Below are positions 1,215 through 62,511 of a DNA stretch of 64,000 nucleotides, piece after piece. Below the pieces are notes generated by a model. It made no database searches, had not been told where the DNA came from, and saw nothing but the letters and a program-made list of their open reading frames with translations. A program made the position numbers and the translations under genes. The DNA is from Sipunculus nudus (lineage: Eukaryota; Annelida; Sipuncula; Golfingiida; Sipunculidae). The DNA is taken from NCBI GenBank assembly GCA_026874595.1, contig CM049313.1, positions 67,076,659-67,140,658 on the forward strand. Reading direction: 5' to 3'. The number at the start of each line of letters is the position of its first letter. The stretch's first letter is position 1.

Positions 1215-2158
1215 TGTTACGGAACCTAATATCAACAGATCACGTATGCGTGATGAACATAAATTTTGTCAAGGAGATAAAAAAATCAGATTCTGTAACA
1301 CTAGGCAGCGTGAAATGTCTAGGGTAATGAATAAAGAAGTAAGTGTTTTTTGATAACAAATATACTATAATTTATTCTTAAAACAATCCTAACATAACAA
1401 TACACTAAATCAATACAATGACACAGTAAAAAAAAACAAAGTACACAGTACTGGTTACCTCCAATGTCACAGCGACAAGTCCTTTAAGCCGGACGAACAG
1501 TTTACACAAATTCTCTCGGAAAATAACGGTCCAATATAAAATTTATTCTTAAAACAATCCTAACATAACAATACACTAAATCAATACAATGACACAGTAA
1601 AAAAAACAAAGTGCACAGTACCTGGTTACCACCAATGTCACAGCGACAAGTCCTTTAAGCCGGACGAACAGTTTACACAAATTCTCTCGGAGAATAACAG
1701 TCCAATATAAAGCTCTTGCAACAATCCCGAAAGTAAACTGAGGACCAAATAAGATAAGTCACAAATCCAGAAGAAAATCTGAAGAAAATCTATAATTGCC
1801 ACACTTATCGGAATAGGTCCCACAAACTGACATACACACTTCTGTGTCCGCTGTAATATTCTCTAACCTCTCTATCTCGGCTCTAAAACACGGCCTCTTT
1901 ATATAACTGTTCACCTCAAGCCGATGATTTTCCATTTCTCGAACAATCTAAGAACCTTACACGTGCACAGACGCGAACATTCGAGACAGGCACGGCAGCG
2001 AGCTGTTACACACCGCGAAAGTTCAACCAGTACGGATTAAACTGAGCGTGCAACACCCGGCCAGGCGAGGCCGCTACGACACGAGTTACGGCCGTGTCAC
2101 ACTATAAAAAAGACATCTGTAAGACTTGTGCACACAATAAAAAGGGGCACCTGTAACA
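1215..2158 (-). mobile_element. Solo LTR of an LTR retrotransposon (family 1)
   Basis: The segment begins TGTTACGG and ends CTGTAACA, the TG...CA ends of an LTR. It is flanked by the 4-bp direct repeat CCAT (1211-1214 and 2159-2162), as expected for integrase-made target duplication. The sense strand is minus, judged from a TATAAAG box (reverse complement at 1897-1905) and the matching sense copy at 34177-34985. No gag-pol or second LTR adjoins it, so it is a solo LTR left by recombination. It is longer than its relatives because of an internal 171-bp tandem duplication (1371-1712). The superfamily cannot be proved without coding sequence; Gypsy is the likeliest. Confidence 0.8.
1371..1712. 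repeat. 171-bp tandem duplication inside the LTR
   Basis: Two head-to-tail copies start at 1371 and 1542 with the same order of landmarks (TTTATTCTTAAAACAATCC ... GCCGGACGAACAG ... CCAATATAAA). They differ at only a few positions, so the duplication is younger than the family. Other copies of the LTR in this window have one unit. Confidence 0.85.
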
Positions 2159-5488: not shown

Positions 5489-5617
5489 TTTTACGAAGAC
5501 ATATTGCTCAGGGGAGCCATGTGGGTGGCGCACAAGTCCGGCGTACCAACCGCTTCGCTAGCAAAGCAAGCTTCAGTAGCGAGACAGTTCGGTCCGCTTT
5601 AATGTCAACCTGTAACA
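5489..5617 (-). mobile_element. Solo LTR of the miniature retrotransposon, B box deleted
   Basis: This is a second copy of the LTR found at 44733-44888. It shares the ACGAAGAC end, the CAAGTCCGGCGTACCAACCG segment and the final TGTAACA. The A-box-like segment is kept (complement of 5545-5560), but roughly 27 bases covering the B box are missing. No partner LTR or internal region is present. Confidence 0.6.
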
Positions 5618-21020: not shown

Positions 21021-24000
21021 TTAGAATTTAAAGATACCCCATTTTTCATTAAGTACCTCCAGTTCGTCTTTTTTTTCTGCAATATGTTTTTCAATTTCAT
21101 AAATCTTCTTTGCATAATTGATACCATCCAATGCTCTTGGTTTCACTTCTTTGCATCTACATGTATACAAGTATTTTTTAAAGATAAGCAATATGAGATT
21201 CAATATATCATATTCCTTGACACCCAATATCACTAGCTTTAAGTCCAATATTATTGTTTGATCTCTCATTTTCTTGTTAAACCAACAGGCTAATTCGGAC
21301 CAATATCCTTGAGTAATAGGGCATTCCCAAAACAAATGTGTCAATGATTCTCTTCCTTCTTCACAAAAAGAACAATTTTCCGTATCTTTGAAACCAATTT
21401 TGAATAAAAATGTATTTGTTGTTAATATTCTATGTATCAAATTAAACTGAAATATCCTTAGGGTTGTAGACTGAGTAAGCTTCACTATATGCAAAAAGGA
21501 ATTAAGGATATATTTTTTGGAGTCATATTCAATATTTAGGTCCCTTGTCCATTTTCTTAATATTCTTTCGGGTTCTACGTATAGAGGTCTGACCAGTTCA
21601 TTGTATGCAGTTTTTGTCACATTTTTCACCTTAAATAATAGGGAAAATTTACTTATATAATTGTCATCTTCATTTGTATGCAATAAAATTTCTTTCCACT
21701 CTCTCGGAATCGAATCCAATAATCCTCTATATTCAAGAATATTAACTTTTTTAACCCTCAGGCTGATTTCTTCATATGTAAGAAATCTCTTAATATCATC
21801 TCCTGTTAATAAATCAGTTAAGCAGTGAATTCCTGCATTTATCCAGTTTTTATAAAATACTGGTTTATTATCCACCCGAATATGTGAGTTCAACCAGATA
21901 TTTTGATTACCAATTTCTGTTACTCCTTTGACTTGGTCTTTATAATTGTATGCACACCATGATTGTAGAACATCTTTCCAGAATGTATTTGTGTTTACAT
22001 AACTATACCATACATCCTCTTTGGCCAAATTACACTTAAAAAAATAATCACCTCCTCTGATCATACTAAGTATGTCTTGTTTATATTCTTCGGTGTCCTT
22101 CTTTAATAATAGTCTTCTGACCCAAGAGACTTTCAAAGATGTTATATAAGTTCTAGGATGGACCATATTAAGGCCTCCATTGTCATAAGATGAAATTAAA
22201 GATTTCCTTTTAATTTTATCTGGCTTGTTGGACCATATGAATCTAAACAGTCTCTGTTCAACCATATTTATAAAATCATCATCAGGTGTAGGTAATACTG
22301 AAAATAAATATGAAAGCTGTGATAACCCAAAAGTTTTAAGAATTGTAATTTTTCCAAGTAATGTAAGATTTCGATATGACCAAACATTAAGCACACTGTT
22401 TAATTTTTCCATGGCAGGGAGAAAATTCAGGTTTTTCAAATTATTTGCCTCTGGGGTTACCTTTATTCCCAGTACATCAACTGGGCCATATGACCATTTC
22501 AGATTCAAATTTTCAATTTCCTCTTTCACTGATCTATCGTAAGTCATGAGCAATGGCATCACTGTTGTCTTATTTAAATTTATCACAAGACCTGAAATTT
22601 TGGAGAAATTCATAAAAACTTTTAGTGCTTCTTTAACTGATGACACATCTTTCAAGGTAAGAACAGTGTCATCTGCATATTGTGTAAGTTTTCCTCCAGG
22701 CATGTAACTGTTAATTAGATTATTGTTCCTGATAGTTAATGCTAAACATTCTGCACATAAAATAAACAGGTATGGGGAGAGAGGACACCCTTGTCTAACT
22801 CCTCTTGAAATACTAAAGTAATTAGACATCCACCCATTGTTTATGATACAACTGCTAATGTCATTATACAAAATACTGCACCATTTTTGTATAACAGAGC
22901 TTATGTTGAAATATTTCAAAGTTTGCTCAAGAAAATTCCATTCCAATTTATCATAAGCTTTTTCAAAGTCTATTGTCATAAGTAGCCCATTTAATTTTGT
23001 TCTCTTTGCATGATAAATATTATTTAAAACTTTATTTATGTTTTCTCCAATATACCTGTTTTTAAGAAATCCTGTTTGGTTGTGGTGTATTATGTGTGGC
23101 AAAATCTTTTTCATCCTTGAAGCTATTACCCCAGCAATAATTTTATAGTCAACATTCATCAAAGAAATTGGTCGCCAATTTTTTATTTCTGTATTATCTT
23201 TACCTTTTTTAGGGATCAAACTTATGACACCTTGTTTTTGGGATATTGAAAGTTCACCACCATCATAAATATACCTTACTGCTTGCAGGAAATATTGTTT
23301 TAGTTGAGTCCAAAATTTTTTGTAGAATTCGGCAGGTATACCATCGTTCCCAGGTGTTTTGTTATTTTTTTGAGACAACAACACATCTGTTATTTCTTTT
23401 TCACTGATTAATGTATTCATTAACATGTTTTGTTCTTTTGAAACTTTTTGAATTGGCTGTACCTGTGCTAGGAATTCTGTGATACTGTGTGCATTTCCTT
23501 TTGAAAAGTTTGATTCATATAAGTCCTTATAAAATTCTTTAGCTGTTTTTATTATTTCCTTTTGATTGTCTGACAAAGACCCATCTGCAAGCCTTAATTT
23601 GTGTATCTTTTTTGCATTGTAGTTTCTTTTTTCCAAATTGAGAAAATATTTAGTGGACTTCTCACCTTGTTCATACCATCTTGTTTTACATCGAATTATG
23701 GCTCCCTCTGTTTTCTCCTGTATAATCTTTTCTAGTTTATCTTTAGTGTTTTGGTATTCTATGTCATCACCACCATTTAACTCTTTCAGGATTTTTAATT
23801 TTCTTTCGAGTATTTGTATTTCATTTTTCCTTTTTCTTGCTTTCTCAATTCCAAATTTAATGCTTTCCCTTCTAATGTACATTTTCATGGTTTCCCACAG
23901 CAGCAGTGGGTTTGTTCCTGGATTTTCTTCAACTACATCTTTGATTGTTTTATTCATAAGTTTTATATAATCATTTTCTTTTAAGAATGAAGTGTTTAAT

Positions 24001-24755
24001 TTCCACAAGCCAGGACCCTTTTGATTTACTGAAGTTCGTATGCCTAAAGTTATTGCACTGTGATCAGATTTGTAGTTTGGCAGAATGTCAGTGTTCACAC
24101 AGTTATTAATTATACCTTGTGACACCACAAAGAAGTCCAGGCGGCAGTGTACTGGCTGTGGCTGCTTTCTAGACCATGTATATTTTTTAACTTCTGGATT
24201 TTTAAACCTCCAAATGTCCACTAAATCAGCTTCTTCCATATAGTTTAGTATTACTTTTTGACTTAGTTTATTTGTTACCTTTCTTCCTCCACTCTTGTCC
24301 TTTGCTAAGTTAAGTACCATGTTCCAGTCTCCCACAAGAATTCTATTATCATTAGGCAGGTTTTCAACTTTTTTGAATATTTCATGGAAAAATTCTGGTG
24401 TGTCATTATTTGGAGCATAAACATTGGCCAGAGTCATACGCATACCAGCAATAGTACAGTCTAATATAATGAACCGACCATTTACATCAATGTCTTTTGT
24501 GTGGATTATGTGTTGAACATGATTCTTTACTAATATTGCAACACCTCTAGAATTACTATTGCCATGGCTACAGATCATTGTATGCCCCCATTCTGCACGC
24601 CACTGTTTTTCTGTTCTTTCTATACTATGTGTTTCTTGTATCATTATAATAACATGTTTCTTGTTCTGCAACCAATAAAATGTCTCCCTCCTCTTTTTGT
24701 AATCAGCTAGCCCCCTGGCATTAATTGATAATAAGTAAATTACACTATCATCCAT
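21021..24755 (-). CDS. LINE ORF2: AP endonuclease-reverse transcriptase
   Basis: A 1,244-residue protein that nicks chromosomal DNA and copies the LINE RNA at the nick. The N-terminal APE-type endonuclease (about 1-235) has all the catalytic landmarks: N12 (SINARGL), E41 (QETHS), Y113 (YAP), D143 and N145 (GDWN), D207 (RLDF), D231-H232 (SDHS). The reverse transcriptase follows, with SLIPKKG, the NWRPISL block, DFEKAYDKLEW near residue 593, GVRQGCPLSPYLF and the catalytic YADD near 692. A C-terminal Cys/His motif (CSFCEEG...H..W.C, about 1127-1146) is typical of the L1/Tx1 group. There is no RNase H. The start is the first ATG in front of the endonuclease, with no in-frame extension having motifs. 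The frame is fully open, so the protein is probably functional. The clade (L1 versus Tx1) needs a tree. Confidence 0.95.
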   Translation of the reverse strand: MDDSVIYLLSINARGLADYKKRRETFYWLQNKKHVIIMIQETHSIERTEKQWRAEWGHTMICSHGNSNSRGVAILVKNHVQHIIHTKDIDVNGRFIILDCTIAGMRMTLANVYAPNNDTPEFFHEIFKKVENLPNDNRILVGDWNMVLNLAKDKSGGRKVTNKLSQKVILNYMEEADLVDIWRFKNPEVKKYTWSRKQPQPVHCRLDFFVVSQGIINNCVNTDILPNYKSDHSAITLGIRTSVNQKGPGLWKLNTSFLKENDYIKLMNKTIKDVVEENPGTNPLLLWETMKMYIRRESIKFGIEKARKRKNEIQILERKLKILKELNGGDDIEYQNTKDKLEKIIQEKTEGAIIRCKTRWYEQGEKSTKYFLNLEKRNYNAKKIHKLRLADGSLSDNQKEIIKTAKEFYKDLYESNFSKGNAHSITEFLAQVQPIQKVSKEQNMLMNTLISEKEITDVLLSQKNNKTPGNDGIPAEFYKKFWTQLKQYFLQAVRYIYDGGELSISQKQGVISLIPKKGKDNTEIKNWRPISLMNVDYKIIAGVIASRMKKILPHIIHHNQTGFLKNRYIGENINKVLNNIYHAKRTKLNGLLMTIDFEKAYDKLEWNFLEQTLKYFNISSVIQKWCSILYNDISSCIINNGWMSNYFSISRGVRQGCPLSPYLFILCAECLALTIRNNNLINSYMPGGKLTQYADDTVLTLKDVSSVKEALKVFMNFSKISGLVINLNKTTVMPLLMTYDRSVKEEIENLNLKWSYGPVDVLGIKVTPEANNLKNLNFLPAMEKLNSVLNVWSYRNLTLLGKITILKTFGLSQLSYLFSVLPTPDDDFINMVEQRLFRFIWSNKPDKIKRKSLISSYDNGGLNMVHPRTYITSLKVSWVRRLLLKKDTEEYKQDILSMIRGGDYFFKCNLAKEDVWYSYVNTNTFWKDVLQSWCAYNYKDQVKGVTEIGNQNIWLNSHIRVDNKPVFYKNWINAGIHCLTDLLTGDDIKRFLTYEEISLRVKKVNILEYRGLLDSIPREWKEILLHTNEDDNYISKFSLLFKVKNVTKTAYNELVRPLYVEPERILRKWTRDLNIEYDSKKYILNSFLHIVKLTQSTTLRIFQFNLIHRILTTNTFLFKIGFKDTENCSFCEEGRESLTHLFWECPITQGYWSELACWFNKKMRDQTIILDLKLVILGVKEYDILNLILLIFKKYLYTCRCKEVKPRALDGINYAKKIYEIEKHIAEKKDELEVLNEKWGIFKF

Positions 24756-25495
24756 ATTTGGTTTCTCTTATAATTTCTATTGTGAATATTTCCATCTTTG
24801 TAGCACATCAAAATAAATTTAAGGTAGGCAAACCCGCCAGTATATTGTAAGTAATCACTGTCCTGCAGAAATCTATATCGTAACATGTATTTTAATTTTT
24901 TGGAAAAGAGATATGTCCAGCCAGCGTTACTGAAAATCATAACATCCATTCTAAAAAAGATACCCTTCATGTGCATCAATGCTGCGGCTAAGTAGACAAA
25001 CATGTTTGTATGGACATAGAAATTAGATGAGCGATAATAGGGTATCCCTTTAAATACGTTTAAACTACGGTGAGTAGAAATAAAAGATTGCCTGTGCATC
25101 TGTACGCTAGTGATAATTATTAATAGACATTTATAAACACATAACAAAAATACAAACATTACTTCCAATGTCTCTGAGACGATGCGTCTTGACTCAGCCT
25201 ACTGGTCTGGTCTGCTCGCTGGTTGTTGCATTGACCGTACGGTTTATCATTCTCCACACAGAGTGTCAAAATTAGAGACAAAAAAAAAAAAAACTCCAAC
25301 AGTTCTTGTCACTGTGTGGAGGCTTATTGATGTGCTTGAAGCGCCATCTGTTAGTCCCTGGTTCGTGCGACTGGACCTAATTCCGAATATTCATGAAAAT
25401 AACCGAAGCATTCCCGCTTCACACGTTACCAGTTACCTTGGACTCTTTTGTCCTGTTGCTGGGGATCGGACTTGGTACCCACAGAATGGCATGCT
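24756..25495 (-). other. Spacer between LINE ORF1 and ORF2
   Basis: The spacer is 740 bp, far longer than the short gap of mammalian L1. It holds a 142-codon frame (24740-25168) that overlaps the ORF2 start by 16 bases and has no recognisable domain. No inserted element was identified. It might contain an internal promoter, a translation re-initiation element or an unrecognised insertion. Confidence 0.5.
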
Positions 25496-26422
25496 TCACT
25501 GCACGGCTTTCCCGTTTACAAACAACTTTCCTCGCCAAAACCGCACTTTGTTTCCCTCATTATACTCTGACATCATTCTCGGTTTGAGCCGCTGCTTTTC
25601 TTTGTAGTCAATAGCCGTAAGGTCTTCGACGAACCGTATTCCCTGGGTCGGAGCCTGTTTGCTCTGTTTTATTATAATGTTTCGGTCAGGCCTTTCATGG
25701 AGCCTAACAATAATGTGCCTGGGGCGTTCGCCTTTGCGTCCTGTTCTATGAGCAGTTTCAATTTTTGCACGGACTGCATCTGTATCTAGCTCACCCAATA
25801 ATTTTCTTTCCTTTATAATTTTTGTCACAATTTCTTTACAGTCCTCTTTATCTGATTCTTGTTTCACCCCTAACACCCTGACGTTCCACTCTCTACTCCA
25901 GCGCTCTGCTTTGTTTATTTCTTCATCTAAGTGTCTCTGCAGCTCTTCAAGCTTTCTGTCTTTTTGCGAATTTTCCTCCTTCAACCGATTTACTTCATTT
26001 TTGAGTTCTTTTATCCTGACATGATCATTTTTTTTGTAAGTTTGCAGTTCATCTATTACAGCACTGACTGTTTCTACACTAGCTTCAACTTCCTTAAAGC
26101 GATTTGACATATGCAAATTATCTTGTGATAATGAAGTTAATTTTGATGTAAGTTCTTTATGAAATTTACTTATCTTTTCTTCCAGTGCTGTGTGTGAGTT
26201 CCTTACAATCTCTTTCATTTCCTTCATTGCACCCTCTATCATCAGTTCAAATGTGCCCATGGCCGTCTCTCCGTCTCTTTGTTCTCCACTGGCCATTTCG
26301 GTCTGTTGTTCAGACTTATTTTTATCCTTTTGCTTGTATTCCTCAGTTGGTTTGTCCATATATTTTGCAATGTCCTCACTAGCACTATTCTTTTTCGCTT
26401 TCCTAGCCCTGCTTCGTGTCAT
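25496..26422 (-). CDS. LINE ORF1: coiled-coil RNA-binding protein
   Basis: A 308-residue protein with the plan of L1 ORF1p (transposase_22-type). It has a very basic N-terminus (RSRARKAKK), a charged Glu/Lys/Gln region, a long coiled coil at about residues 75-175, an RRM-like part beginning near WNVRVLGV with AHRTGRKGERPRHIIVRL, and a C-terminal part ending KVRFWRGKLFVNGKAVQ. By analogy it trimerises, coats the LINE RNA and acts as a nucleic-acid chaperone. It is the first ORF of the element, about 90 bp from the 5' end, and is undamaged. No zinc knuckle of the CCHC type is seen, so it belongs to the coiled-coil/RRM type. Confidence 0.9.
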   Translation of the reverse strand: MTRSRARKAKKNSASEDIAKYMDKPTEEYKQKDKNKSEQQTEMASGEQRDGETAMGTFELMIEGAMKEMKEIVRNSHTALEEKISKFHKELTSKLTSLSQDNLHMSNRFKEVEASVETVSAVIDELQTYKKNDHVRIKELKNEVNRLKEENSQKDRKLEELQRHLDEEINKAERWSREWNVRVLGVKQESDKEDCKEIVTKIIKERKLLGELDTDAVRAKIETAHRTGRKGERPRHIIVRLHERPDRNIIIKQSKQAPTQGIRFVEDLTAIDYKEKQRLKPRMMSEYNEGNKVRFWRGKLFVNGKAVQ

Positions 26423-26512
26423 AACGGTCTTAACTTTTTGTTAAATCAGATGTATTCTGTGGAGCTCAGACACACCGCGTCCACCCTACTCCGCCATGAC
26501 ACCGGAACCTTC
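26423..26512 (-). promoter_or_regulatory. LINE 5' leader with YY1-like motif
   Basis: On the sense strand the element opens GAAGGTTCCGGTGTCATGGCGGAG. Bases complementary to 26489-26500 give GTCATGGCGGAG, a good match to the ATGGCGG core of a YY1 site. Human L1 has a YY1 site in the same place, where it fixes the transcription start. The leader is only 90 bp, so promoter activity must lie here or downstream. Confidence 0.55.
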
Positions 26513-34176: not shown

Positions 34177-34980
34177 TGTTACAGGTGCCCCTTTTTATTG
34201 TTTGCAGCGGTCTTACAGATGATTGCTTTATTGTGCACACGGATGTTCCATGTGTTGTTTGAGTGCCACGCGAAGCTCGTATTGTAGCGGGTTCGCCTGG
34301 CCGGATGTTGCAGGCTCGGTTTAATCCGCATTGGTTGAACCCTATATACACAGCGTTCTTTGTTCTAGTATGTTCTTTGAACGTGTGTACTGTGTTAGAT
34401 TCTTTAAATTGTTCGAGAAATGGAAAATTCTCGGCTTGAGATGAAAAGTTATATAAAGAGGCTGGGTTTTAGAGCATAGAGAGAGAGGTGAGAGAATATT
34501 CCAGGGGACATATAAGCGTGTATGTACGTTTGGGGGACCTATTCCGACAATTATAGGCTTTTCTTCAGATTTTCTTCGGATTTGTGAAGAATCTTATTTG
34601 GTCTTCAGTTTACTTTGGGTATTGTTACAAGAGCTTTACATTGGACTGTTATTCTCCGAGAGAATACATTTTAAAGGACTTGTCGCTGTGACAGTGGTGG
34701 TATCAAGGTACTGGCCACTTTGTTTTTTTTTTTGTTTTTTTTTTTTACTGTGTGATTGTATTGATTTGCTTTTATACTGTGTTATTGTATTGATAAAGTG
34801 TATTGCAATGTTTGAGTTGTTTTAAGAATAAATTATGGTTATTCATTAACAAAAAGCCACTGACTTCTTTATTCATTCCCCCAGACACTTCACGCTACCT
34901 AGTGTTACAGAATCTGATATTTTTTCCATTACAAAATATATGTTCATCACGCATACGTGATCTGTTGGTTTTAGGTTCGG

Positions 34981-34985
<5 letters not shown>
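34177..34985 (+). mobile_element. Solo LTR (family 1), sense orientation
   Basis: The element starts TGTTACAGGTGCCCC and ends GGTTCGGTAAC, the complement order of the copy at 1215-2158. It contains a TATA box (TATAAAG, 34452-34458) and AATAAA (34827-34832) about 375 bp downstream, the layout of U3, R and U5. It inserted into a TA-rich tract, so TATAT flanks it on both sides and the exact target duplication cannot be read. No gag-pol is attached. Confidence 0.75.
34452..34458 (+). promoter_or_regulatory. LTR TATA box
   Basis: TATAAAGAGGC is conserved in the copies at 34452 and (complement) 1897-1905, and is ATAAATAGGGGG in the 57900-58497 copy. It defines the sense strand of the LTR. Confidence 0.65.

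Positions 34986-35047
<62 letters not shown>
34986..35047. repeat. (TA)n microsatellite
   Basis: About 31 TA units directly abutting the 3' end of the LTR. Confidence 0.9.
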
Positions 35048-42959: not shown

Positions 42960-44732
42960 AGTATATGCTTTGACTATAAACAGTTTATACATTATATTGC
43001 TAGCTTTAATCTTTACGATATATTCATGTAGTGGAACAATAGCCACTAACCACTGTCTAATATTTGTATTAACCGCTCTGGATAGTGGTTTTCTCCATTT
43101 TCTTAGGGGTCATTGAATATTAAGTAGCTGAAAATTGAGTCTTCATCATTTCGTTTGAAGAGACCGTTCTTTCTTCAAGCGGAGACTTGTTAAGGTCAGG
43201 TTATATAATGGGGAGGGATCTCGCGCACAATCCGTCAACCTCGGTCAAATCCTTCTGATCCGTACAAGGGATCTGGGGACTTTCATGTTTTCTTTGATTG
43301 TTTGTCAGAGGATTTCGCCAAAGCGCCCGGAGTGGAGGGGTTACTTGTTACTAAAGTCCAGGACGAATGTCACAGTGTGTTCTGTCATTTGTAATACGGT
43401 ACTCCTTGTCTTTTGTCATCGCTTTTATTAAATCGACAATGATGAATCGTACCTCGCAGTTTCTATCAAAGGAAAGTGATCGATCACTCAATAACAGGAC
43501 GACGTTTAGAATGTACGTTGTGACAAGCACAGTCACGCAGGGTCTTCCAAGGGTATTAGACGATCTTCTTCAACTGGGGAAATTCTTTAACGACAAGATA
43601 TTCGAAGTTTCATATTTATATCAACGCTAAAAAAAAATGAACCAAAATGCAGTTGGATCAATTTACTTGCTCTTTCGACGAGTTATGTGATTTCAAAATA
43701 GTGTTTCAAGCAACAGCGTATTGGTATGGTGTTTACCAATAGATAAATTTTACATGACATTTTTATTACATCCTTTATGACACTTTTTTACAAAACCTTT
43801 CAAGTTTTCAAGCCCCTCTCATAAATATAAGGTGGAAAATAATTAAGCGTTTGATCAATTTCTATTCCATGTGTAAATATTATGAAGTAAAATTCTAGAT
43901 ATTAAAAAGTCCCGGTATGTCATCTCATTCAGCATCAAACTGGTGCTCAAAGTATTAATCCCTGTTTTACTTTTTTTATATTGGTGTATGCAGAAAAGCT
44001 GCAGCATCCATCTTAAAAAGTGTGAGAACTTGCCTTAATTGTCAAGATCCAGATTTTGATTGCACTTGCTTTAGTTAACGGGACATTGAATTGTTACCTA
44101 CAACTTTCTGTTTTTTTTTCTTTTGTAATGACCTTGTCTGATGATACCACTTTCTCTGTGTCCTTTTCATCATCAATATGCTCCCAAATGAGATTTGTTA
44201 CGGGATCATTTTTATTCAGATCTATTTTACCTTCATATGTCGTAAATAATGAAACTGTGTATATGGAATATCTGCAGTAAGACCATGTATAATTGGAATG
44301 AATAATTTGAAGTTTATTATAATTAAGTTTGTTTTATCGTTGACTAGCGAACACGTTTGTGTAACAATAATAACCTGCTATCAACCGGTAAAAAATAGCG
44401 GTCATAGGGTACTCAATCGCCACTTCAGACATTGTGTGCAGCTACAACGCTGAACTGTGAACTCCGAGTAATTTAACGCCTCGAGTAAAACCATAATGTA
44501 ATTATAAGTTGATCTACGACTGACAGAAGAAGCGATGGTGCCGCCTTGGTAGAAATGAACTGGAAATTGTGTTAATATTAGGAACAATACATCTTAGCCC
44601 TTTCCTCTCTTATCCAAAGGTTATTTCGTAAATTCGTCTAAACCGATCCAACTGGACATTTAAATATGCCGAAGTGATTGTTCTTATAGCCGTTTTGGAG
44701 TTTTATTAACTTATCAAAATTGTGTTGTAAGC
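42960..44732. other. Unassigned stretch
   Basis: Short frames only (up to 87 codons), many on opposite strands of the same segment. No gene is supported. Confidence 0.4.
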
Positions 44733-45042
44733 TGTCACGAAGACAAATAGCTCAGGGGAAGAAACTGAGGCGATCCGGAATTCGAACCCATGTCGGTGGC
44801 GAACAAGTCCGGCGTACCAACCGTTTCGCTAGAAAAGCAAGCTTAACTAGCGAGACAGTTAGGTCCGCTTTCATGTCACCTCGTAACACACCCCCTCGTA
44901 AAAGAATAATTATCCCAGGAGTCCCACTTTGGTGAGCTTATTCCCTCGGCCGCACAAATACCGTCACGTTGGACGAGCCCCCATTTTGTTACGAAGAAAA
45001 GCAAGCTTCACTAGCGAGAGAGTTCAGTCCGCTTTTATGTCA
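44733..45042 (-). mobile_element. Miniature LTR retrotransposon (TRIM) with tRNA-Pro primer site
   Basis: Read on the minus strand: a shortened 5' LTR (complement of 44987-45042), three bases, an 18-base primer-binding region beginning TGGGGGCTCGTCC (complement of 44966-44983), about 70 bp of non-coding sequence, a purine tract GAGGGGGTG, and a 3' LTR of 156 bp (complement of 44733-44888) with ends TGTTACG and CGTGACA. The first 13 bases of the primer site equal the complement of the 3' end of tRNA-Pro including CCA. There is no coding sequence, so it would depend on proteins of a larger LTR element. The 5' LTR lacks the tRNA-like part and its outer end. Confidence 0.6.
44778..44831 (-). promoter_or_regulatory. 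tRNA-like Pol III promoter inside the LTR
   Basis: The minus strand has TAGCGAAACGGTTGGTA (complement of 44815-44831, A box) and GGTTCGAATTC (complement of 44778-44788, B box), with box starts 43-44 nt apart as in real tRNAs. A 3-bp D stem (GCG/CGC) and a short T stem can form, but the anticodon stem is poor. It is therefore a tRNA-derived promoter and not a tRNA gene. Confidence 0.55.
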
Positions 45043-45940
45043 CAAAGCAGATCCTCAAACTTCAATACAATAAGTAAGGTGTGAATATATAAAACTATTA
45101 TACAATGAAACCATGCAATAATTAATTACACATTACCAGCTTTACATCGATATCCTAATCCTCTAGATAAAGATTTCGTTACGTAACATTCCAATCTGAT
45201 CAAGCCAGAATAGTTTATCCTCAAAAACAACACTTAAAATTAAATTTTAGACACTTGCTGTAATGGGGTATAATTGATCAATATTTTAATGTTTCCTTCT
45301 TACTCCACCCTTTTTCTATATTTCTTATTTACTATATAGTGTGTTTTATCAATATTTAAAGGTAACTTATTGACATTAAAGGGACATAATCAGGAGCAAT
45401 ATTATGCCTATTTTTCACACTGTCAGTTCAGTTTTGATTTATACTAAGTGTCCCAGCAAAACGATCCTAGCACTCAACCTCAGTAGCTCGCATAGGACTG
45501 TTTAACACCTTGTTATGGCTCTGCGTGTTAGTAAACACAGTCAATGTGTGTATGTTTACCATAACAAGGCCGCGTGACCGGAGGTCGGATTGTGAGCTGT
45601 TTCAGCCAACGGGAAAAGGTATTAGATTTTTTAGGGCCAAGTCAGTCAAGGCATCTCCTAATTGACACGTGCTGGGGCTCCGCGATGCACACGGCCCCAC
45701 GCGTTGTGTTAATGTTGACACCTGTGATCGCGCCCGGTCCACTGTTTTAACACTCTTTTACAGGAATAAGAAAACGGTTTCAAGGCAATATTTTTTAAGA
45801 AAAAGATTTATTTAAAAGGAAGCAGCTATTTCTCATGTTAATTGAACATGCCTTATAGGTGATTGGGCACCTTAAAGCCACACAACCACATTAGATAATT
45901 CATTGATTAAAATGTTTGCTATATCAGTTAAGTTTTTTTC
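45043..45940. other. Unassigned stretch
   Basis: No gene or repeat could be named. Confidence 0.4.
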
Positions 45941-46888: not shown

Positions 46889-48045
46889 TATCCCCTCGCA
46901 ACGAAGTTGCGAAAAGGATATAGTAACACCTCCGTTCGTGCGTACGTCCGTCTGTCCGTCCGAAATTGCCTTGTGGATCGATTTCAAGCCAAACCGTTTG
47001 CCCAAAACCTTTCATCTTGCACATATGGCTTACCCACCCAAGGATGAAGAAACATATCGATTTTGAGGTCACGGGGTTAAAGGTCACGGCCACAGCACCC
47101 ACATCTAGAAAAAGCTTGTGGTCCCATTTTAAGCAAAACCGTTTGACCTAAACCTTTCATCTCGTACATATGGCTCACCAACTCATAGATGAAGAAACCT
47201 ATCGATTTTGAAGTCCCGGGGTCAAAGGTCACAGCCACAGCACCCACTTCTTCAAAAATCGTGTGGATCAATTTCAAGCAAAACCATTTGACCTAAACCG
47301 TTCATCTCGCACATATGGCTCACCCATCCATGGATGAGAAAACCTTTTGATTTAGAGGTCACGGATATAGTAACACCTCCGTTCGTGCGTACGTCCGTCT
47401 GTCCGTCCGAAATTGCCTTGTGGATCGATTTCAAGCCAAACCGTTTGCCCAAAACCTTTCATCTTGCACATATGGCTTACCCACCCATGGATGAAGAAAC
47501 ATATCGATTTTGAGGTCACGGGGTTAAAGGTCACGGCCACAGCACCCACTTTTTGAAAAAGCTTGTGGATCAATTTCAAGCAAAACCGTTTGACCTAAAC
47601 CTTTCATCTCGCACATATGGCTCACCCAACCATAGATGAAGAAACCTATCGATTTTGAGGTCACAAGGTCAAAGGTCACGGCCACAGCACCCACTTCTTG
47701 AAAAAGCTTGTGGACCCATTTTAAGCACCTGCAACGTCATGCTCAATTTTCCAGCGCCCTTGTGCCATATGCTTTTTTCAACTGGACCCAATCCTTCTTA
47801 TAACAAAATTGCAACAGCGGATATACTAGCTCCTAAATATGTACATCCATCTTCCTGTCTGTCTTCCCATCCGTTTCGATATACCATATTGATCAATTCT
47901 AAGCCGAATCATTTGATCTTAAGCTTTCTCCTTCACATATGCCTCACCCATCCATACACGTACAACCTCCTCATTTTAACACTTGCGTAATAAACCCCAT
48001 ATCATTATGCTCCCATGCGAGGGGATGCTCCGCTTTGCGGTGCCC
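46889..48045. mobile_element. Non-coding element with internal tandem units
   Basis: The block opens ATCCCCTCGCAACGAAGTTGCG (first 11 bases 46890-46900) and closes with TGCGAGGGGAT (48016-48026), an 11-bp inverted pair. Inside are five or six related units of about 147 bp (CACATATGGCT, AAACCGTTTG, ATCGATTTTGAGGTCAC, GGCCACAGCACCCAC). They include a near-identical 185-bp segment repeated at 46916 and 47363. Frames through it (for example 46839-47102 and 47352-47579) are repeats of one another and not genes. It fits a non-autonomous DNA element of a type I associate with mollusc genomes. Confidence 0.6.
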
Positions 48046-48569
48046 TTGTTGTTTGTGTTTACCTCTGGACCTTTTGTTCCTGTCTGTTATCTGGTAAGTT
48101 TATAAGCTCCGCGGGCAGTCACAAGGTTAGGTTCCAGCGCTGCCGGCCAAAATTACATTGCTAAACAGCCGGTACCTAAATGAACCAGCCTATACCTTTT
48201 CTTTAGAATGCAATAACCCTTTGTAGTGTCCTCGCTCATGTAGCAAAATCTCAACTCCGTATAAATTGAATGCCAAAATTGAGAAACCAATTGTTTTCAC
48301 TTCATTTAGATGTATGCTGATGGAAAAAGTTAGGTAACAATTTTTATCCCCCCCCCCCCATCCAAGATGGCCGCCATCATAACAAAAGAGCCAAAATATT
48401 ACATGGATATTCTAACTATAGCATCAAATGAATAATATTGGATCGATTTATGAGAGTTTGAATATGTCCTGGTAATACTAACTACTCAGGGAGCTGTCTA
48501 AAGTTTAGGGAGGGTATTCAAGGTCAAGGTCAAACTTATTTACCAACCTTCGATCTTAAGAATAACATT
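48046..48569. other. Unassigned stretch before the satellite
   Basis: A C run at about 48349-48359. No gene is supported. Confidence 0.4.
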
Positions 48570-49560
48570 AGACATCTTGGGTACACGGTGACGTATATTT
48601 TGGAATATGGTTTTCAATGATTATCAGAATTAATTATTAGACATCTTTGGTACTACGCTGACATATATTTTGGAATATGGTTTTCAAATAGTTATCAGAA
48701 TTAATTATTAAACATCTTGGGTACTACGCTGACATATATTTTGGAATATGGTTTTCAAATAGTTATCAGAATTAATTATTAGACATCTTGGGTACTACGC
48801 TGACATCTGTTTTGGAATATGGTTTTCAATGATTATCAGAATTAATTATTAGACATCTTGGGTACTACGCTGACATATATTTTGGAATATGGTTTTCAAA
48901 TAGTTATCAGAATTAATTATTAGACATCTTGGGTACTACGCTGACATATATTTTGGAATATGGTTTTCAAATAGTTATCAGAATTAATTATTAGACATCT
49001 TTGGTACTACGCCGACATATATTTTGGAATATGGTTTTCAAATAGTTATCAGAATTAATTATTAGACATCTTGGGTACTACGCTGACATATATTTTGGAA
49101 TATGGTTTTCAAATAGTTATCAGAATTAATTATTAGACATCTTGGGTACTACGCTGACATATATTTTGGAATATGGTTTTCAAATAGTAATCAGAATTAA
49201 TTTTTAGACATCTTGGGTACTACGCTGACATATATTTTGGAATATGGCTTTCAAATAGTTATCAGAATTAATTATTAGACATCTTGGGTACTACGCCGAC
49301 ATATATTTTGCAATATGGTTTTCAAATAGTTATCAGAATTAATTATTAGACATCTTGGGTACTACGCTGACAAATATTTTGGAATATGGTTTTCAAATAG
49401 TTATCAAAATTAATTATTAGACATCTTGGGTACTTCGCTGACATATATTTTGGAATATGGTTTTCAAATAGTTATCAGAATTAATTATTAGACATCTTGG
49501 GTACTACGCTGACATATATTTTGGAATATGGTTTTCAAATAGTTATCAGAATTAATTATT
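48570..49560. repeat. 71-bp satellite array, about 14 units
   Basis: Units begin at GACATCTTGGGTAC (48571, 48640, 48711, 48782, 48852, 48923, and every 71 bp to 49491). They are 95% or more alike, with a few diagnostic variants (ACGCCGACAT, TTTGGTAC). The first units are the most diverged, as usual at array edges, and two units are one or two bases shorter. Confidence 0.95.
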
Positions 49561-53293: not shown

Positions 53294-55623
53294 TTGTTTG
53301 TTAGTTTCAATTCAGATTCGATCAGCTTTAGAAGCACAAGGGAATATGGATACGAAGGTTTGTTTGCCATTGATGTTCCCAAGCCCACTTCAAGTAGCAT
53401 TAAGTCTGGTGACAGTGAGACAGCAGAGAAACACGAGACTTCAGCTGAAAGTGTACCTGATGTCACCAGCAAAGTACACCATGGAGGACAGTCCACTGAG
53501 GCCAGTTCCAGTCATCACCCGGAGCGGCCAGTGAAAAGTTTACCCGATGAGCCATATCATCCGGATACCAGTATCATGCCTGTGCAGAAGCTACCTAAGC
53601 GTACATTGAAATCTAACAAAGTTGGTTCACAAAATATCCTTGGCTTCATTTTGACACTACGGTTGGTGGTGTTATATGCCACGTATGCGCCACGGCCACC
53701 TTTCATCACATTCTAGATTTAGCTATGTGCTCTGAGAACACGAACACTTTTATAACAAAAGGGTTTTCTAATTGGAAAAGGGCTCCTAAAAAAATTTGAA
53801 GCCTATTAAAAATCCTAATCGCACAAGCTTGCTCTTCAAAATGTCAGATTCATGAAGAAAGACGCTGTTACAGTACAGCTTAGCTGAGGTTTGAAAGTTG
53901 ACAAAGAAAAAGCCTAACAAGCTCTCCCGAAAATAGTGTCTCCTTTGAGGTTTCTAGCTATGCAGGGCCTTCCACTTCGTGGCAGTGATGAATTTAGCGG
54001 AAACTTGATGCCACTGCTGCATCTCCGTTGTGAAGATGACCCTTATCTTAAGACATGGTTATCAAAGAAACAAAGCTTTGTCAGCTGGGATATTCAAAAT
54101 GAAATCCTTAAGATTATGAGCCATGCAATCTTGCGGCTTATCATAAGATACATAAATACAAAAATCTGTCCAGTACGGGTTAGTTGTTGATGGTACACAA
54201 GACGTGCAGGGGAATGAGCAGGAAAGTATTTGTATTCGATATGTTACAGACACGTTAGAAGTCCAAGAAGACTGTGTTGGCTTGTATCAAGTTTCCTCAA
54301 CAACTGGGGAGTCTCTCAGCCTGATAATTCGTGATGCTCTGTTGAGACTTCAACTGCCAATTGAAAATCTCAGAGCTCAAACATATGACGGAGATTCTAA
54401 TATGTCTGGAATACACCGAGGATGTCAAGCTGAAATTAAAAAAAGTTCAACCTCTTGCTTCAAATGTTCATTGCGATGCACACGTAACTCATCTCGTGAC
54501 AGCCAAGGCGGTTGAAGCCGCTCCGTATTTAAGTGATTCACTTGATAGCGTGCATGAATTTGGCAAAATCTATGAGGGATCAGTAAAAGTTCAAGAATCT
54601 CTATTTAAGCCTCCATGATGATTTCACGGATGTACCAGAACCATCTCGACTGAAACCGATATGCCAAACTAGTTGGTTGATCAGACTTTCAGCAGTCGAT
54701 GCTGTCTTGAAGAATTACTCTGATATGCTAGATGCACTGCAGAAAGCAGCAGCCACCTTTGGGAGCAATGTTGCATCAGAGCAAATGGTTTACTCACAAT
54801 TTTTTCATCAGGCAAGATTATGCTGGGCCTCTTGACTGCATTACCTTTTATAAATTGCACGGAGAAATAGAACTGAGCTTTACAGGGAACAGATGTCAAC
54901 GTGGCAAGCATGCTGCAATCCGTAAATCTCGTTAAGGCTGAACTTCAACACCTTCGTTCAGATGAAGAATTCAGTCGTATATTTAGAAAGGCTGAAGAAA
55001 AAATAACTGATTTGGATCTCAACCCAATAGTAGCTCCAAGGAGGATGAAGCTACCAAAGAGATATGGTCAAGGAACTGCTCCACAGCACGAGTTTGAATC
55101 TGTGGAGGCACTGTATCGTTGCCAGTTCTTCAGTGTAATCGACGTGGCTGTCAGACACCTTGACGATTACTTTGAATCATCAGATCTGGAGGAATACAGG
55201 AAATTGTCAAACCTTTTCCTCAAAGCAGAAGCCCCGATTGATCATCATACCAAACAGCCAATCGTTAAGAAGTATCCTGAGCTAGAACCTTCTTTGGAGC
55301 TTGAACTGAATTTTTACAGACAGCACCACAGGGGAGCCAGTTTAGAAGAACACAGACTTATTTTCCAGTCCATGGAAAATGGGACAAGGAAAATGTTCCC
55401 GAAGGTAGAGAGGCTCATGAGGCTGCTGTTGGTATCACCAAGTAGTTCCTGTGCAGCTGAGAGGTCCTTCAGAGCCCTTAGGAGGTTTAAGACAAGGCTG
55501 TGTTCCACCATGACGCAGAGACGGTTAAACCATGTTATGATCTGTCATGTTCACAAGAAACGTCTTGGGGAAGTGTCTTGTCAGCAGATAGCCGTGGAAT
55601 TTGTGAAAGGGGAAGATTATTGA
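53294..55623 (+). pseudogene. hAT-family transposase, broken
   Basis: The relic of a TTF/ZMYM1-like hAT transposase is spread over all three plus frames. In order: a low-complexity N-terminus (53294-53622); after a one-base shift a TTF-type zinc-finger segment with WFTKYPWLHF, GGVICHVC and FITKGFSNWKRAPKK; SPLRFLAMQGLPLRG (from 53936); the first catalytic region VVDGTQD after a shift near 54175; YDGDSNMSG with the second Asp (from 54391); VHCDAHVTHLV after a shift near 54440; LHDDFTDVPEPSRLKPICQTSW; and the C-terminal dimerisation region with SSCAAERSFRALRRFKTRL (in the open frame 54901-55623). At least five frame changes make it non-functional. The family is clear; no terminal repeats or 8-bp duplication were confirmed. 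Confidence 0.85.
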
Positions 55624-57587: not shown

Positions 57588-58618
57588 CGTATTTATTTGT
57601 TCTGCCACTCGCAAGGTGTATTCGTGTTACTGAAGCATGACAGTGCTCACACATGAAATGCATACAGGTGAACACATGGCTGATATTAAAGGAGATTTTG
57701 GTGGAGGTTGTCAGGAACCCAATATAAACAGATCACGTATGCGTGATGAACACAAATTTTGTAATGGAGAAAAAAAAATCAGATTCTGTAGAACAAGGCA
57801 GCGTGAAATGTCTAGGGGAATGAATAAAGAAGTCCGTGGTTTTTTTTTGGTTAACAAATAATTATAATTTATAACAAAACGCATGTTTACTGTGTACTAT
57901 GTTTGACCCTTTAGACTGTTCGAGAAGTGGAAAATTCTCGGCTTGGGGCAAGAAGTGATAAATAGGGGGCTGTGCTTTAGAGCCGAGAGAGAGAGGGAGA
58001 GGGGATGATTCCAGCGGACACAGACGTGTGTATGTCAGTTTGTGGGACCTGTCCGATTATCCAGTAATTTCAGGGATTCTACTATTCCTAACTCTATACA
58101 ATTTAATGCTGCTTGCCTCAAGTTTACTTTCTGGATTGTTACAAGAGCTTAACATTGGACTGTTATTCTCCGAGACTACACATTTTAAAGAACTTGTCGC
58201 TGTGCGGTGATGGTATCCAGGTACTGTGCTCTTTGTTTATAAGGCTGCGTGATTATATTGATTTGATGTTATACTGTTATTGTACTGAGTAATTGTATTG
58301 ATTTAGTGTACTGTAATGTTAGGGTTGTTTTGTTATAAGTTATAATTATTTGTTAACCAAAAAAAACCATGGACTTCTTTATTCATTTCCCTAGACATTT
58401 CACGCTGCCTTGTTCTACAGAATCTGATTTTGTTTTCTCCATTACAAAATTTGTGTTCATCATGCATACGTGATCTGTTTATATTGGGTTCCTGACAACC
58501 TCCACCAAAATCTCCCTTAATATCAGCCATGTGTTCACCTGTATGCATTTCATGTGTGAGCACTGTCATGCTTCAGTAACACGAATACACCTTGCGAGTG
58601 GCAGAACAAATAAATACG
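57588..58618. repeat. Foldback: 293-bp inverted arms around a partial LTR
   Basis: Arms 57588-57880 and 58326-58618 are nearly exact inverse copies; the 74-codon frame at 57637 reappears inverted in 58333-58569. The spacer and right arm up to 58497 form a truncated sense-orientation family 1 LTR (TTCGAGAAGTGGAAAATTCTC, ATAAATAGGGGG, ending GTTCCTGACA). The remaining 121 bp of each arm are not LTR sequence. Confidence 0.8.
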
Positions 58619-61667: not shown

Positions 61668-62511
61668 ATTAGTTGCAATTAACAGAACACATTCTAATAC
61701 GTATAAATTGTTACGGAACCTAATATCAACAGATCACGTAGTCATGACGAGCATAAATTTCGTTATGGAGATAAAAAAATCAGATTCTGTAACACTAGGC
61801 AGCGTGAAACGTCTAGGGGAATGAATAAAGAAGTAGTGTTTTTTTGTTAACAAATAATTATAATTAATTCTTAAAACAATCCCAATATTACAATAAACTT
61901 AATCAATACAATTACACAGTATAACAACAGTACAACAGTAAATCAATGCAAGTATAAAAAGTGTACAGTACCTGGATACCATCACTCACAGCGACAAAAA
62001 GTCTTTTAAAGCATATAATCCAAATGAACAGTTCACATAAATCTTCTTAGAGAATAACAGTCCAGTTCAATCACAAAATCAATTTGTTGTAATTCAAAAC
62101 AGAAGTTCTGGTAGTGATCCAAAGCAAACTAAAGACTAATTAAAATCCGTTACAAATTCGAAGAAAATCTGTAACTGCTAGTCTGGGTCTTTCTCAAAGC
62201 CCCAGACTAGCATGACCGCTGTTTACACGTCAGATCCAACGCGTGGGCCGGGCTATGCCACCATAGCAACGGCTAATTCTAGCGCTGCACATACACATAG
62301 GACTGCTGCATACAATAAAAGAGACATCTGTAACAAATCGATCCAATTATCTTACATCATTAAATTTTATCGTTATCTCTATGGCCTATTATCTTTTATC
62401 ATTAAGTTTTCTCATTTACTCTATGGCCCTTTTGGATTCCCTGGGGTCATAGAGCTCATAAAAACTCTTTTTTAGTTGCAATCGACAGAACACATTCAAA
62501 GACGTATAAAT
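61668..62511. repeat. Short direct repeats bordering the LTR
   Basis: TTAGTTGCAAT..ACAGAACACATTC....ACGTATAAAT occurs at 61670-61708 and again at 62475-62511. The second copy continues into CGGTCCAAC, as the first does across the LTR (CGATCCAAT), so the second copy shows the locus without the insertion. Confidence 0.7.
61709..62335 (-). mobile_element. Solo LTR (family 1), shortened
   Basis: The ends are TGTTACGGAACC and CTGTAACA, flanked by AAT on both sides. It is about 150 bp shorter than the copy at 34177 and has a hairpin of 11-bp arms (62177-62187 with 62201-62211, CTAGTCTGGG) in the middle. No internal retrotransposon sequence is attached. Confidence 0.75.

Follow-up and report, generated by a model that had tools for sequence, protein, structure and literature searches.

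The insertion at positions 44733-45044 of the window, the 64,000-nucleotide stretch of Sipunculus nudus DNA analysed here, is very probably an old and partly deleted miniature LTR retrotransposon (TRIM) of the Helenus type (TRIMp3), which carries RNA polymerase III (Pol III) promoter sequence in its LTR and follows the life cycle proposed below. As an element it adds one more ordinary case to a group already published; what deserves specialist attention is a set of fused insertions elsewhere in the genome. Taken jointly, these fusions probably form a fossil record of TRIM reverse transcription, in which mature tRNA-Pro bearing its CCA served as the primer, landing on the B box gave rise to palindromes, and one Ty3/Gypsy element acted as helper.

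TRIMs are gene-less, and the autonomous element that mobilises them has mostly been guessed from signals held in common. Fusions that hold both elements and the primer tRNA within one target site duplication (TSD) would let the helper be read from the assembly, a reading applicable to other TRIMs. If the joint reading is true, they would be direct evidence, at the genomic level, of which helper serves a Pol III-type TRIM. Additionally, a run of four T residues (T4), found at a constant position behind the B box, offers a candidate R region that can be tested in Helenus.

Structure of the focal insertion

The initial annotation described a TRIM with LTR ends, a tRNA-Pro primer binding site (PBS), a polypurine tract (PPT) and no coding sequence, and all of these parts were located in the focal copy (Table 1), which is confirmed as a TRIM insertion with corrections: its end, first placed at 45042, lies at 45044, and its sense strand is the minus strand. 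On that strand the 5′ LTR is followed by AAA, the PBS, the remaining internal region, the PPT and the 3′ LTR. The A and B boxes do lie in the LTR at tRNA spacing, 43 bases apart in the focal 3′ LTR, and no other pair of this kind occurs in the 64 kb, whichever strand is read (scan at A ≥6/7, B ≥9/10 and spacing 30-60; reversed control, 0).

The two focal LTRs share a 49-mer at 90%, and alignment to 70 complete LTRs of the family shows that the 5′ LTR is missing the tRNA-like part along with 8 bases near its start. A tRNA gene was considered at this locus and rejected, as Rfam gave no tRNA match at E≤1 in seven loci that include the focal one, and ARAGORN found no tRNA gene in the window or in three fetched loci (L012, L013 and L024). 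The Rfam scan of the window at gathering also gave no match. Around the second TRIM copy in the window, a solo LTR, no TSD was seen.

Table 1. Features of the focal TRIM, the second TRIM copy and the LTR2 copies, in window positions.
Feature	Position	Strand	Remarks
Whole Helenus-type TRIM insertion	44733..45044, 312 bp	-	LTR tips, PBS, PPT, flanking 4-bp TSD
TSD AAGC, left	44729..44732	.	Perfect 4-bp copy of right TSD; minus-strand reading GCTT
TSD AAGC, right	45045..45048	.	Perfect 4-bp copy of left TSD
5′ LTR, 58 bp left	44987..45044	-	Internally deleted; TGTGACAT...TTCGTAACA
Internal region, non-coding, 98 bp	44889..44986	-	
tRNA-Pro PBS TGGGGGCTCGTCC, 13/13	44971..44983 (minus 44983-44971)	-	Plus-strand letters GGACGAGCCCCCA
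PPT GAGGGGGTG	44889..44897	-	
3′ LTR, 156 bp, with tRNA-like part	44733..44888	-	TGTTACGAGG...CTTCGTGACA; TGTTACG...TGACA
A box TAGCGAAACGG, 7/7, LTR 58-68	44821..44831	-	
B box GGTTCGAATTC, 9/10, LTR 101-111	44778..44788	-	
Family T4-run site, LTR about 125-130	44759..44764	-	Focal copy reads TTTCTT
Second TRIM copy, solo LTR	5489..5617	-	A box kept, B box deleted
LTR2 solo LTR	1215..2158	-	TSD CCAT both sides; Gypsy identity via L213
LTR2 copy, part aligned	34654..34988	+	
LTR2 fragment	57714..57872	-	
LTR2 copy, part aligned	58168..58492	+	
LTR2 copy, part aligned	61708..62009	-	

The family in the genome

A 30-mer core of the tRNA-like part has 3,439 genome matches at up to 2 mismatches and an internal 31-mer has 2,008, each against 0 in the reversed control, so the focal element is no chance match. 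From 2,332 candidate places 40 were scored, and with the focal one set aside the 39 loci that match the focal copy best (L009-L047) were fetched. Because this set is biased to focal-like copies, a second sample was taken by the tRNA-like core, consisting of the first 30 exact core matches, all on contig C1. Every one of these overlaps an LTR match, with a complete LTR in 26 of the 30 loci and the internal region in 21; the two partial cases are L142, which matches LTR 43-135 only, and L152, which matches LTR 46-156 only.

The 39 loci hold 42 chains, several of them tandem arrays of 3 to 5 LTRs. Target duplications, expected if these are full copies, are found: a perfect 4-bp TSD flanks 13 of the 24 chains with both outer LTR ends, compared to 9 of 552 mismatched pairings, and the other 11 complete chains are without a perfect TSD; L039 and L040, whose flanks are identical, were both counted. 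The simple two-LTR copies (17 complete, 401-426 bp long) have a perfect TSD in 9/17. The element structure and flanking bases of L039 and L040 are alike on two chromosomes, which suggests a duplicated segment.

The 49 other internal regions measure 91-123 bp, and 22 of them keep the exact 13-nt PBS. Neighbouring LTRs differ by a median K2P distance of 0.099 (31 pairs; lowest 0.029), and with a median divergence of about 10% the family is mostly old. Single-sequence folds of the internal region in three fetched copies form a CCCAGG/CCTGGG hairpin. This was considered as a packaging signal and rejected, as RNAalifold on the 49 internal regions did not select it and gave little covariation.

The tRNA-like part belongs to the LTR of the family

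The tRNA-like part is confined to the 3′ LTR in the focal copy, as it would be had an ordinary TRIM received a SINE in just one of its LTRs. It may also derive historically from a SINE, as is proposed for Helenus (Kojima, 2024, PMC10886601). Yet the 1.43-Gb genome has a single exact occurrence of the 20-mer spanning the tRNA-less junction, and at up to 2 mismatches this 20-mer gives 4 matches versus 3 in the reversed control. In 36 of the 39 fetched loci, both of two successive LTRs hold the tRNA-like part (span LTR 58-111), so that full copies do have paired LTRs. The unique junction and this pairing together indicate that the deletion in the focal 5′ LTR is private and that the tRNA-like part belongs to the family LTR. 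Rather than a stand-alone unit without LTR or PBS, as a SINE would be, all 30 core-sampled loci have the part inside an LTR match, and most of it is also present in the solo LTR at 5489-5617. The junction, the core sample and the paired LTRs rule out a SINE in one LTR for the focal copy, and we regard this origin as extremely improbable. The expectation that the tRNA-like part lies in both LTRs therefore holds for the family, but not for the focal copy.

Putative promoter, terminator and R region

Over the 70 complete LTRs, agreement is 0.92 in the A box, 0.875 in the B box and 0.90 in the whole LTR, so neither box is conspicuous. The distance between them is 43 in 60/70 LTRs and differs in the other 10. 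The conspicuous feature is a T4 run about 26 bases downstream of the start of the B box, with TTTT at alignment columns 127-130 in 54/70 LTRs. Counted by raw positions rather than by alignment columns, which accounts for the difference, T4 falls within LTR 116-140 in 51/70 LTRs, compared to 28.1 ± 3.3 in shuffles, a standard deviation that is too small because the copies are related. In the core sample T4 follows the B box in 27/30 copies. In 34/70 LTRs a further T4 immediately precedes the A box (within LTR 45-58); it may lie too near the start to have an effect.

By the rule for tRNA genes, which we take to apply here, initiation would fall near LTR 40-48. This suggests an R region of about 45-130, with U3 at 1-45 and U5 at 130-156, an arrangement that would require read-through of the first T4. 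Among openly licensed papers, no earlier report of a T4-defined R for a Helenus-type TRIM was found.

The use of this promoter sequence by Pol III is inferred from the sequence, and the tRNA-like part could instead be a degenerate relic whose boxes hitch-hike in an LTR transcribed by Pol II. Such a relic would explain why the boxes are conserved no better than the remaining LTR, why the Rfam tRNA model is not reached, and why T4 is not depleted in the internal region, a depletion considered as proof of Pol III transcription and rejected (9/49 observed and 10.9 expected, not significant). A copy from a related subfamily (L177) also has an altered A box and is missing 13 bases between the boxes. 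That same copy, however, retains CGCCACCGACATGGGTTCGAAT despite its more diverged LTR, and together with the T4 that follows the B box and the constant spacing of the boxes, this argues against a relic, which we consider unlikely.

Probable primer tRNA-Pro and the fused insertions

The 3′ part of tRNA-Pro has 108 genome matches, which occur in clusters. Among the matches listed, clusters lie at C14:19.08-19.32 Mb, where the spacing is in part ~3.65 kb, and at C5:41.59-41.81 Mb. Two genes from the clusters were identified by ARAGORN as tRNA-Pro TGG and CGG, and by Rfam as tRNA, and the PBS corresponds to the 3′ end plus CCA of both. A third place (L180) proved to be a fused LTR with no tRNA gene.

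A pattern made of the tRNA T arm, the acceptor and CCCCCA, which selects tRNA-Pro junctions and leaves other primers invisible, marks 50 dispersed places in the genome and 0 in the reversed control. We read 30 of these junctions (L181-L185, L187, L188 and L190-L212), comprising all 23 exact matches and 7 of the 27 with one mismatch; two further loci outside the 50 were dropped (L186, and L189, which looks like a tRNA-Pro gene). In 21/30, a TRIM LTR runs to the tail of the B box (LTR 115), passes into the 3′ end of the primer and continues into an inverted TRIM LTR. Another four (L184, L199, L204 and L205) were scored by the script as a TRIM LTR and primer end with no adjoining TRIM LTR. In L199 the primer end is repeated and an inverted TRIM LTR follows, while L184, L204 and L205 have the inverted copy of another LTR, which we label LTR2, beside the primer end.

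Sequence from the body of tRNA-Pro is present in 5/30 junctions, starting at nucleotide 10 in L187, 38 in L195, 37 in L203, 41 in L208 and 42 in L209. In L187 and L195 it continues past CCA into a TRIM LTR in antisense orientation, and in L203 into LTR2; for L208 and L209 the script matched nothing on the right side. Since CCA is encoded in neither of the tRNA-Pro genes read, these copies derive either from a processed tRNA or from tRNA joined to a PBS. Nucleotide 37 is presumably the modified base m1G37, and the starts at 37 and 38, two of the five, are consistent with a stop caused by a modified base 3′ of the anticodon. Among those compared, the arms of a palindrome are 89-95% alike, compared to 84-95% between different palindromes, and because these ranges overlap arm identity is no proof of self-copying.

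A Ty3/Gypsy candidate for the helper

LTR2 recurs five times in the window (Table 1), and its identity comes from locus L213 (C2:76994480), where a tRNA-Pro PBS (17/17) comes after an LTR2 end and frames for RVT_1 (Pfam, 1.1e-33) and RNase H (PF17917, 1.3e-28) come next, as in a Ty3/Gypsy element. The nearest solved chain is Ty3 RT (4ol8, 2.5e-37), and the frames are short only. Perfect PBS sites (129 matches) had also been used to look for a helper, and the two loci read first from that search, L176 and L177, were rejected as helpers and look like related TRIM subfamilies, as they have their internal region, and L177 also its LTR, in common with the TRIM. L213 was picked later, by its LTR2 end. 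The tips of LTR2 are TGTTACAGG and CCGTAACA in the window copy and L213 and TGTTATAGG in the fused copy of L205, next to TGTTACGG and TTCGTAACA for the TRIM family.

Three fusions place the two elements together. In L187, a TRIM LTR leads through the PBS and the tRNA-Pro copy into LTR2, and from there into the PBS of LTR2 and a Gypsy leader, with 319 bases matching L213 at 87%. L205 consists of a TRIM LTR, the primer end and an inverted LTR2, flanked by ATAC on both sides, and L204 of a TRIM LTR, the primer end, part of LTR2 and an inverted TRIM LTR, flanked by TACC on both sides. Fusions of TRIM and LTR2 within one 4-bp TSD, the PBS in common and the similar tips suggest that tRNA-Pro is the primer and the Gypsy element a candidate helper.

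The flanks bear on whether the fusions are single integration products. Of the 15 loci that have a TRIM end on the left, 6 (L181, L193, L196, L199, L204 and L205) show a perfect repeat of 4 bp where a U3 terminus is recognised; counting loci that share flanks as one gives 5/13. The left flanks of L181 and L193 are shared, and those of L201 and L202 likewise. Six of the 15 have no 4-bp flank match (L182, L183, L184, L185, L188 and L190), and the matches in L201, L202 and L206 lie off the U3 terminus and were not counted as TSDs. With shuffled flanks, a match arises somewhere downstream in 3.4 of the 15 loci. The unmatched and displaced flanks, the shared flanks and this background count in favour of an origin by rearrangement or nested insertion after integration, in which case the fusions would be uninformative on the helper. 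The homology AATCCCGG/TCCCGG could serve such recombination, and the similarity between the arms of one palindrome does not clearly exceed that between arms from different ones. Against this stand the six perfect repeats at a U3 terminus, which include the two TRIM-Gypsy fusions with TACC and ATAC, and the five junctions that carry tRNA-Pro body with a CCA absent from both genes read. We therefore judge rearrangement decidedly unlikely and take the fusions as probable products of reverse transcription.

Proposed life cycle

In the proposed cycle, Pol III would start upstream of the A box, around LTR 40-48, and would read through the T4 of the 5′ LTR, near LTR 127-130, often enough to reach the T4 of the 3′ LTR. 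The resulting RNA would have an R of about 45-130 at each end. Mature tRNA-Pro would prime minus-strand synthesis at the PBS, as the fused insertions support. The single-TSD fusions of TRIM and Gypsy in turn suggest that reverse transcriptase and integrase are supplied in trans by the Ty3/Gypsy candidate, which has a PBS and TSD length as in the TRIM and similar tips (TGTTAC...CGTAACA). Integration duplicates 4 bp, and the solo LTRs and tandem arrays seen in the genome presumably form by recombination between LTRs. A by-product may arise when plus-strand strong-stop DNA extends over the acceptor and T arm of the primer and re-anneals to the matching B-box tail in an LTR. Once extended, this DNA would integrate as the LTR-inverted-LTR palindromes found here, some of them with TSDs.

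Relation to known TRIMs

The structural part of the initial annotation stands, but its suggestion that an animal TRIM with a tRNA promoter would be new does not, as animal TRIMs whose LTR contains promoter sequence of tRNA origin had already been described in 2024 under the name Helenus (Kojima, 2024, PMC10886601). Helenus ranges over six animal phyla, fungi and Selaginella, and its helper in animals is taken to be a Gypsy element, inferred from PBS similarity (PMC10886601). The family described here is Helenus-type, a known class to which it is assigned by anatomy against the published description: it has tRNA-derived LTR sequence, box spacing, PBS and PPT, a 4-bp TSD, and a non-coding length below 1 kb. 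Bivalve Helenus likewise combines tRNA-derived LTR sequence, a PBS to a tRNA 3′ end (tRNA-Pro being among the bivalve primers) and a PPT, and Helenus further resembles the family in its 4-bp TSD in animals, its solo LTRs and its lengths from 311 bp (PMC10886601). The abstract, methods, results, discussion, legends and tables of that paper report no fused insertions, and in the text covered "terminator" is used a single time, about Cassandra (PMC10886601). Among openly licensed papers, a search on Helenus and TRIMp3 gave Kojima (2024), a 2026 meeting report and unrelated papers.

Cassandra, from plants, is also a TRIM whose LTR includes both a promoter and a terminator for Pol III, and its short R results from initiation and termination inside the small-RNA part, as proposed here (PMC10886601). 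It differs in having a 5S rRNA promoter and an R of 18 bp, compared to the approximately 85 nt inferred here (PMC10886601). No 5S match was found in seven loci of the present family at E≤1. According to Kojima, nothing points to a helper for Cassandra (PMC10886601).

Two other animal TRIMs are similar in part. biv-TRIM (Satovic et al., 2019, PMC6934838), from bivalves, also forms tandem arrays and solo repeats, with terminal repeats of 202-218 bp; it differs in having no unambiguous PBS and in its PPT, GGGGAGA, and the term "polymerase III" is absent from the text covered. For ta-TRIM of taeniid cestodes (PMC4558846) a helper was likewise proposed, by way of the PBS, LTR tips and TSD length, whereas its PBS is to tRNA-Leu. 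The passages covered contain neither "polymerase III" nor fused insertions, and they state that before this candidate no TRIM helper had been proposed in any species (PMC4558846).

The fused insertions have a parallel in the template-switch insertions of Triticeae (Sabot and Schulman, 2007, PMC1950507), which are also TSD-flanked composites explained as one reverse-transcription product. Those composites differ in being within-family fusions that share an LTR, in direct orientation and with no primer tRNA at the junction (PMC1950507). Among the openly licensed matches listed, no title or start of an abstract pointed to earlier primer-tRNA palindromes or fused TRIM insertions.

Other features of the window and assembly

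The window also contains a LINE-like element on the minus strand (21021-26440), whose long frame matches endonuclease, RVT_1 and zf-RVT and is preceded upstream by a 314-aa frame without a Pfam match. Tandem arrays occupy 48567-49560 and 46970-47727, with 71-bp units (14 copies) and units of about 145 bp, and pieces of a hAT-like transposase with DUF4371 and Dimer_Tnp_hAT matches lie at 54156-55623. Elsewhere in the assembly, bacterial-type COX1 is present at nine places on C60-C89 (C60, C61, C62, C66, C72, C74, C75 and C89) and at one on C123, a contig that looks bacterial. A search for a molluscan haemocyanin beta-sandwich domain, run with no positive control, found none. The C60 COX1 has 59% identity to the best of 80 GTDB loci listed, and with so distant a relationship a little-known bacterial associate may be in the assembly.
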